NCBI RefSeq assembly: GCF_000018605.1
Contig: NC_010003.1
Location: 1,464,501-1,528,500, forward strand
DNA from: Petrotoga mobilis SJ95
Lineage (GTDB): Bacteria; Thermotogota; Thermotogae; Petrotogales; Petrotogaceae
Direction: 5' to 3'
Length of the DNA: 64,000 nucleotides
Part shown: positions 43,883-45,714 of the stretch, piece after piece
Numbering within the stretch: the first letter of the stretch is position 1
How the letters are laid out: the number at the start of each line of letters is the position of its first letter
Made by a program: the position numbers and the translations under genes
Notes under the pieces: model-generated
What the model saw: only the letters and a program-made list of their open reading frames with translations
What the model was told of the DNA's origin: nothing
Database searches by the model: none

Positions 43883-44515
43883 ATGTCAATCTATGATGAG
43901 ATTAACGAACAGAAATTGGATGCATTGAAGGAATTAGGAAACATAGGTGCAGGTAATGCGGCGACAGCTATTTCAACCATGTTGAACAAAAAAATAGATA
44001 TCACAGTTCCCTCTGCTGAAATTTTGCCGATTTCAGAGTTATGGGAGGAGTTTAGTGATCCTGAGGATATAACAGCCGGGTCAATGGTAGAAATTGGTGG
44101 AGAGCTTCATGGGGCGATTTTGTTTCTGCTAGGAACTGAAGAGATGAAAAATATTTTAGAGTTGTTAATGCTCCCCCGACCACAAGACTTAACCCAAATT
44201 GATGAAATGACCTCTTCAGCCATAGGTGAAATTGGTAATATTATGTGTAGCTCTTATATATCTGCGCTTTCGAATTTCACAGGTTTGAACATACATTCCT
44301 TGCCTCCAAAAATTACCGTAGATATGTTAACAGCTATAGTTTCTGAGTCTTCCCTCATGGTTACTGAAGGGAGCGATTTTGTAATTTTAATTAGAACAGA
44401 AATAAACATGGAAGAGTATGAAGGGAACGTAAAAGGCTTCTTGATATATTTATCAGACGAACAAAATATTTTAAAATTATTAAAATCCTTAGGAATGGGG
44501 ACGAATAATGACTGA
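43883..44515 (+). CDS. cheC: CheY-P phosphatase CheC
   Basis: Removes phosphate from CheY-P, stimulated by CheD. Two phosphatase signatures are present: LDALKELGNIGAGNA with Glu17 and Asn20, and SSAIGEIGNIMCSS with the matching Glu and Asn near 115-118. 210 residues, the usual length. ATG at 43883 after AAAAGGGGGAAG. The stop overlaps the cheD start by 8 bp, so CheC and CheD are translated together. Confidence 0.97.
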   Translation: MSIYDEINEQKLDALKELGNIGAGNAATAISTMLNKKIDITVPSAEILPISELWEEFSDPEDITAGSMVEIGGELHGAILFLLGTEEMKNILELLMLPRPQDLTQIDEMTSSAIGEIGNIMCSSYISALSNFTGLNIHSLPPKITVDMLTAIVSESSLMVTEGSDFVILIRTEINMEEYEGNVKGFLIYLSDEQNILKLLKSLGMGTNND

Positions 44516-45006
44516 GAGCAAGAAAAAAATAATAGGAATTGGTGAATACATCGTAGATAAAAATCCAGCTATTTTGGTAACATTAGGGTTAGGCTCGTGT
44601 GTAGCCGTTTGTTTGCGAGATAAGAAAAACCTCATTGGAGGGTTAGTCCACGTCATGCTTCCTGAAAGTAGAGATAATAAAAAAGATCAAAAGATCGGTA
44701 AATACGCAGATACAGGGATAAAAGCAATAATAGATGGAATTATAGATTTGGGTGGAAACGTTAAATATCTGGAAGCTAAGATAGCAGGGGGGGGCAGCTA
44801 TGTTCCAAAATTCGAATAATTCTTTGAATGTTGGAGCCAAAAACGTTGAAGCCGTAAGACAAATTTTGAAAGAAAACGACATAAAAATAATTTCTGAAGA
44901 TACAGGAGGAAATAGAGCTAGAAGTGTTGAATTTAACATCGCTAATGGAGAATTAAAAGTTAAGAAGGTCGGCGGGGGAGAAAAAGTTGAAATCGCAGTA
45001 ATTTAA
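44508..45006 (+). pseudogene. cheD: Chemoreceptor deamidase CheD, split by an eight-G run
   Basis: CheD deamidates receptor glutamines and stimulates CheC. The first frame (44508-44819) carries the catalytic residues Thr25, Cys31 and His48 (VTLGLGSC, GGLVHVMLP) and reads to KIAGGG, then diverges into SYVPKFE and stops. The second frame (44800-45006) carries the rest: NVGAKNVEAV, EDTGGNRARSVEFN, VGGGEKVEI. Removing one G from the G8 run at 44787-44794 joins them into a normal 165-residue CheD. Explanations are a sequence error, a phase-variable tract, programmed slippage, or true loss. The second frame has its own ATG at 44800, five bases after the G-run, which could serve as a ribosome binding site. 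Confidence 0.9.
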
Positions 45007-45018
45007 GGTGGCAAATAT

Positions 45019-45714
45019 ATGAAATACAAAATTAATGAAGAACAACTGGTAATGGAGTTTTTGCCAAAAATAAAGATTATAGCTTTGAATCTGAAAACCA
45101 CTTTACCAAAAAATATAGAATTAGAGGATTTGATTCAGGAGGGGATTATTGGATTACTTCAATCATATAAAAGATACAACCCGGAAAAAGGTACTTCCTT
45201 TTACACCTACGCTCTAAAAAGGATAAAAGGTTCAATGTATGATTATCTGAGGAGAATAGATTGGCTTCCAAAGGACGTTCGAAGTTTAGTAAAAAAGTAC
45301 GAAGATTTGATTTACGAATGTAAAGATAATGAGTACATAGACGATAATTCAGTGGCAGAAAAACTTCATATTGAAAAAAATGATGTAGATAAAATAAAGT
45401 TCTCCTTGAGCAAAAGGCAGATTCTTCAATTGGATGAGTACTTTTTAAACAATGAAGAAGATACCTGGCTTGAAGATATACAAGAAGAAAACGACCCTGA
45501 AATACTGGCTTATAAAGATATGTTACATGATAAATTAACAGAAAGTATCGAGAAATTGGAAGAAAGAGAAAAATTGATACTTTCTCTATACTATAACGAA
45601 GGCTTAACCTTTAAAGAAATAGGAAGTGTTTTAGAAATAAGTGAATCACGGGTTTCCCAGTTACACTCAGTAATATTGGTGAAATTAAAAAAGATGATTC
45701 AAGGAAGTGAATAA
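45019..45714 (+). CDS. fliA: Flagellar sigma factor FliA (sigma-28)
   Basis: Directs RNA polymerase to late flagellar and chemotaxis promoters. The 231 residues show region 2 (IELEDLIQEGIIGLLQSYKR, TSFYTYALKRIKGSMYDYLRR in shortened form SFYTYALKRIKGSMYDYLR), RSLVKKYEDL, and region 4 (REKLILSLYYNEGLTFKEIG and SESRVSQLHS). Region 1 is absent as expected for sigma-28. ATG at 45019 after AAGGTGGCAAAT, 12 bp after cheD. Confidence 0.95.
   Translation: MKYKINEEQLVMEFLPKIKIIALNLKTTLPKNIELEDLIQEGIIGLLQSYKRYNPEKGTSFYTYALKRIKGSMYDYLRRIDWLPKDVRSLVKKYEDLIYECKDNEYIDDNSVAEKLHIEKNDVDKIKFSLSKRQILQLDEYFLNNEEDTWLEDIQEENDPEILAYKDMLHDKLTESIEKLEEREKLILSLYYNEGLTFKEIGSVLEISESRVSQLHSVILVKLKKMIQGSE

Follow-up and report, generated by a model that had tools for sequence, protein, structure and literature searches.

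In the 64,000-nucleotide window of the Petrotoga mobilis SJ95 genome analysed here, the chemotaxis gene cheD lies on the plus strand between two intact genes. Upstream is cheC, encoding the CheY-P phosphatase (43883..44515, plus strand; NCBIfam NF041093, 305 bits), which overlaps the start of cheD by 8 bases. The next gene encodes a FliA/SigD-type flagellar sigma factor (45019..45714, plus strand; TIGR02479, 218 bits). A run of eight G on the plus strand (44787-44794) breaks cheD into two parts, as a sequence-only reading of this DNA had reported. The 5′ part (44508..44819, plus strand) is read from an ATG at 44508 to a TAA at 44817-44819, a frame of 103 codons of which the last, past the G run, are no longer in the CheD frame. 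The 3′ part (44795..45006, plus strand) continues in the +1 frame, which is open from an ATG at 44800, five bases 3′ of the G run, to 45006 and encodes 68 amino acids.

Both parts are recognisable as CheD. The Pfam CheD profile (PF03975) is split over the two fragments at positions 1-52 and 45/51-108, with scores of 44.1 bits for the 5′ part and 61.2 bits for the 3′ part, each above the cut-off of 25 bits. Thermotoga maritima CheD (2f9z chain C) is likewise matched over residues 3-94 by the first (E 4.6e-29) and 97-157 by the second (E 4.3e-20). Against the NCBIfam equivalog NF041119 (CheD_Thtga) the fragments reach 151.8 and 97.0 bits, each alone below the cut-off of 240. As written, cheD is therefore broken, with no single intact protein that attains the equivalog score. 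The P. mobilis gene spans 499 bases, compared with 498 bases and 165 amino acids in each of the four closest relatives, which bears out the expected length of 165 residues. The break falls at about residue 95, just before the Met-Phe of a GGxxMF motif, and this pair is still encoded (ATG TTC at 44800), although solely in the shifted frame. Judged from its place in the motif, the ATG at 44800 encodes a Met that CheD proteins conserve. Intact homologues have this Met as part of their protein sequence, so the presence of the ATG requires no start-codon function; the sequence-only reading located the codon correctly, but the separate C-terminal fragment that it suggested there has no support.

The interruption is confined to one genome. 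Among 61 genomes of the class, 41 contain CheD, and the gene gives a single uninterrupted match in all five other Petrotoga species and a single full match in 34 of the 35 further CheD-positive genomes. This class-wide search revealed no relative with a split CheD. The one partial match comes from a distant genome of another family that mostly lacks CheD (L034:2234-2524, minus strand), where a short CheD-like open frame has a divergent downstream part; it is either a remnant or a diverged paralogue. At the position of the break, relatives read AKIAGGAAMF or near variants, encoded by GGA GGA GCA or by mixed glycine codons. None of the relatives whose sequence was read there has a G run, seven genomes being represented instead by an upstream GGM motif, and the tract is thus private to the P. 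mobilis genome. In the closest relative, the strand opposite cheD has an open frame of 170 codons that covers the entire gene and exceeds it in length (L049:13351-13860, minus strand), probably as a by-product of codon usage.

Both halves of cheD carry the mark of purifying selection, in agreement with the earlier description of two well-conserved parts. Comparison with the four closest relatives gives a dN/dS of 0.04-0.07 for the 5′ half and 0.03-0.05 for the 3′ half, values within or below the range found among the intact relatives themselves (0.04-0.14). Changes specific to the P. mobilis lineage comprise 28 synonymous and 6 nonsynonymous substitutions, with omega at 0.055 and 0.062 in the two halves. 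When the number of nonsynonymous changes is set at its Poisson upper bound, the unconstrained share of the branch is at most about 6-9%. Thus any period without full constraint on the two halves spans no more than the last ~10% of the lineage, and the break must be very recent if it exists in living cells at all. The genome also retains 12 MCP-domain matches (receptors) and CheB, as does the sister species, so that CheD still has substrates.

The tract alone is no more than chance would produce. Dinucleotide shuffles of the window predict 0.38 tracts of eight G, and 25 of 100 shuffles contain at least one; what is notable is that this tract falls where the frame of a conserved gene breaks. Across the whole genome (2,169,548 bp) there are six such tracts, compared with about 13 predicted by scaling the window shuffles, and no run of G or C of 9 or more. 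The five congeners contain 1-6 tracts of this length per genome and two genomes of a sister genus none. In P. mobilis, two of the six lie in unbroken genes (PduL-like and aroK-aroB), two at or near gene starts and one between genes, leaving cheD as the sole gene broken by one. A wider inspection took in 24 of the 28 distinct G/C tracts with a length of at least 7. Besides that in cheD, all ten tracts of 7-8 situated well inside genes, with at least 30 codons on either side, sit in unbroken frames, two of them being G8. The genome is not enriched for long intragenic G/C tracts, as one with contingency loci would be.

These observations point, with somewhat better than even confidence, to an extra G added to a G7 tract during sequencing or assembly of this one genome. 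The sequence-only reading had offered sequencing error as the alternative to its own proposal, and it has become the best-supported explanation. The gene descends from an ordinary cheD of 165 codons, in which synonymous third-position changes turned a stretch of glycine codons (GGA GGA GCA in the closest relatives) into an uninterrupted G run. Because relatives carry the glycine codons without the run, the run itself arose in this lineage and the extra base was added to it; the eighth G would be a one-base overcount, introduced on sequencing or assembling a single genome. From a one-base homopolymer difference, seen in one genome only, in a fully constrained gene whose receptors and CheB have been kept, we infer that sequencing, and not the cell, was the source of the extra base. 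Normal CheD is then most likely made in the cell. Against a miscounted base, the other G7-G8 tracts of this assembly have been handled well and stand in frame.

The quality of the assembly is also touched by smpB, which has been listed as frameshifted in Petrotoga mobilis SJ95 (PMC4131195). The possibility that the assembly is full of homopolymer errors was considered and rejected, as smpB has the frame and length found in all five congeners and the other G/C tracts of 7-8 inspected well inside genes are in frame. In smpB (394180-394605) and its five congeneric counterparts there is no ATG, GTG or TTG at the N-terminus; the position expected for the start holds a conserved ATA, preceded by GAGGTGA. 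The gene may use a conserved AUA start codon, which may in turn be the reason for the listing of the SJ95 gene as frameshifted.

A real and very recent polymerase slip at G7, in the sequenced strain or in culture, is a possible but less probable source of the eighth G, and would have created a cheD null allele. G tracts are slip-prone, and genuine broken genes exist elsewhere in this genome, which makes a real mutation of cheD plausible. In the window and its right flank, cheD is the only clear frameshift; a screen of ~235 kb against the closest relative revealed a few further broken genes, including thiI as a true pseudogene. The thiI-like gene (184595-185385) has a frameshift at an A run and, measured against the closest species, has lost ~415 bp internally. 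A gene for a LacI-type regulator (149314-150303), with 95% identity to an intact relative, has an in-frame stop at codon 229. In a sensor-like gene (~908304-910639), whose C-terminus appears HD-GYP-like by eye, the frame shifts by -1 at a short A run compared with the closest species.

The position of the break would make such a slip consequential. In Bacillus subtilis CheD, mutants of M101 have little deamidase activity, while F102E retains deamidation, binds CheC and receptors more weakly and is non-chemotactic like a cheD null (PMC3513319). The GGxxMF motif suggests where this Met-Phe pair lies in P. mobilis, immediately past the break, and these phenotypes lead one to expect a null phenotype from a true G8 allele. 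If the eighth G is real, the protein loses the Met-Phe residues on which its activity and its binding to CheC depend, along with the C-terminal third, and adaptation would be impaired. The 5′ fragment would keep the catalytic Cys/His region, which we take from T. maritima CheD to lie within it. However, neither half of the gene shows relaxed selection, so that the mutation would have to be very young, and it is found in one genome only. An error of sequencing or assembly is consequently judged more likely than a mutation of the strain or culture, a weighting that reflects judgement and not computation.

Explanations that give the G run a function, whether as a switch, a slippage site or the boundary of a split protein, together hold only a small share of the probability. 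That a new poly-G tract toggles adaptation on and off, or leaks full-length CheD by slippage, appears improbable. The switch that the sequence-only reading had proposed would be reversible phase variation, with G7 expressing CheD and G8 silencing it; an intragenic G8 of which one length restores the full gene is indeed the classical layout. Such a switch is nevertheless quite improbable here, since the relatives whose site was read all lack the tract, G runs in the genome reach eight at most and do so six times, its congeners have as few, and five of the six break no gene. Neither a conserved tract nor a population of long G tracts supports the proposal, and a search of the literature for frameshifts in Thermotogae CheD or phase variation of CheD found nothing relevant. 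A real switch would mean that a thermophile controls an adaptation protein by phase variation, and this would be an unusual case.

Slightly less credible still is a recovery of some full-length CheD at the G8, through slippage during transcription or a +1 shift of the ribosomal reading frame. The sequence-only reading had raised polymerase or ribosomal slippage as well, and eight G could permit it, the frame needed being +1 or -2. Yet relatives read at the site are in frame without the tract, so nothing there has been selected as a recoding site, as a conserved slippery site would be, and inspection by eye revealed no known +1 signal. Least credible of all is a CheD assembled from two pieces, in which the G run would act as a Shine-Dalgarno-like stretch for translation from the ATG at 44800: the 5-base spacing fits a ribosome site, several other G7-G8 tracts lie just upstream of gene starts and the 5′ frame stops 17-19 bases beyond this ATG, where coupling is possible, but the Met is conserved as a residue in intact homologues and thus gives no evidence of a start, and the search of the class met no split CheD among the relatives.

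Phase-variable poly-G contingency loci are known from organisms such as Campylobacter and Neisseria, and cheD resembles them in having an intragenic G8 of which one length is in frame. In contrast to these loci, the cheD tract is unconserved, belongs to no set of such loci and targets a core adaptation protein. With the CheD deamidases (PF03975, NF041119, T. maritima 2f9z chain C), the P. mobilis gene shares its sequence, its order after cheC and matches of both halves over their length; it departs from them in that the frame is broken by one extra base in the G run. A conserved chemotaxis gene should not be listed as lost or regulated in P. mobilis on account of a single homopolymer base. We found no difference between cheD and the homopolymer frameshifts that occur in single records, as sequencing errors or recent pseudogenes, and the likeness extends to both of their features: a private one-base difference and a gene that is otherwise constrained.
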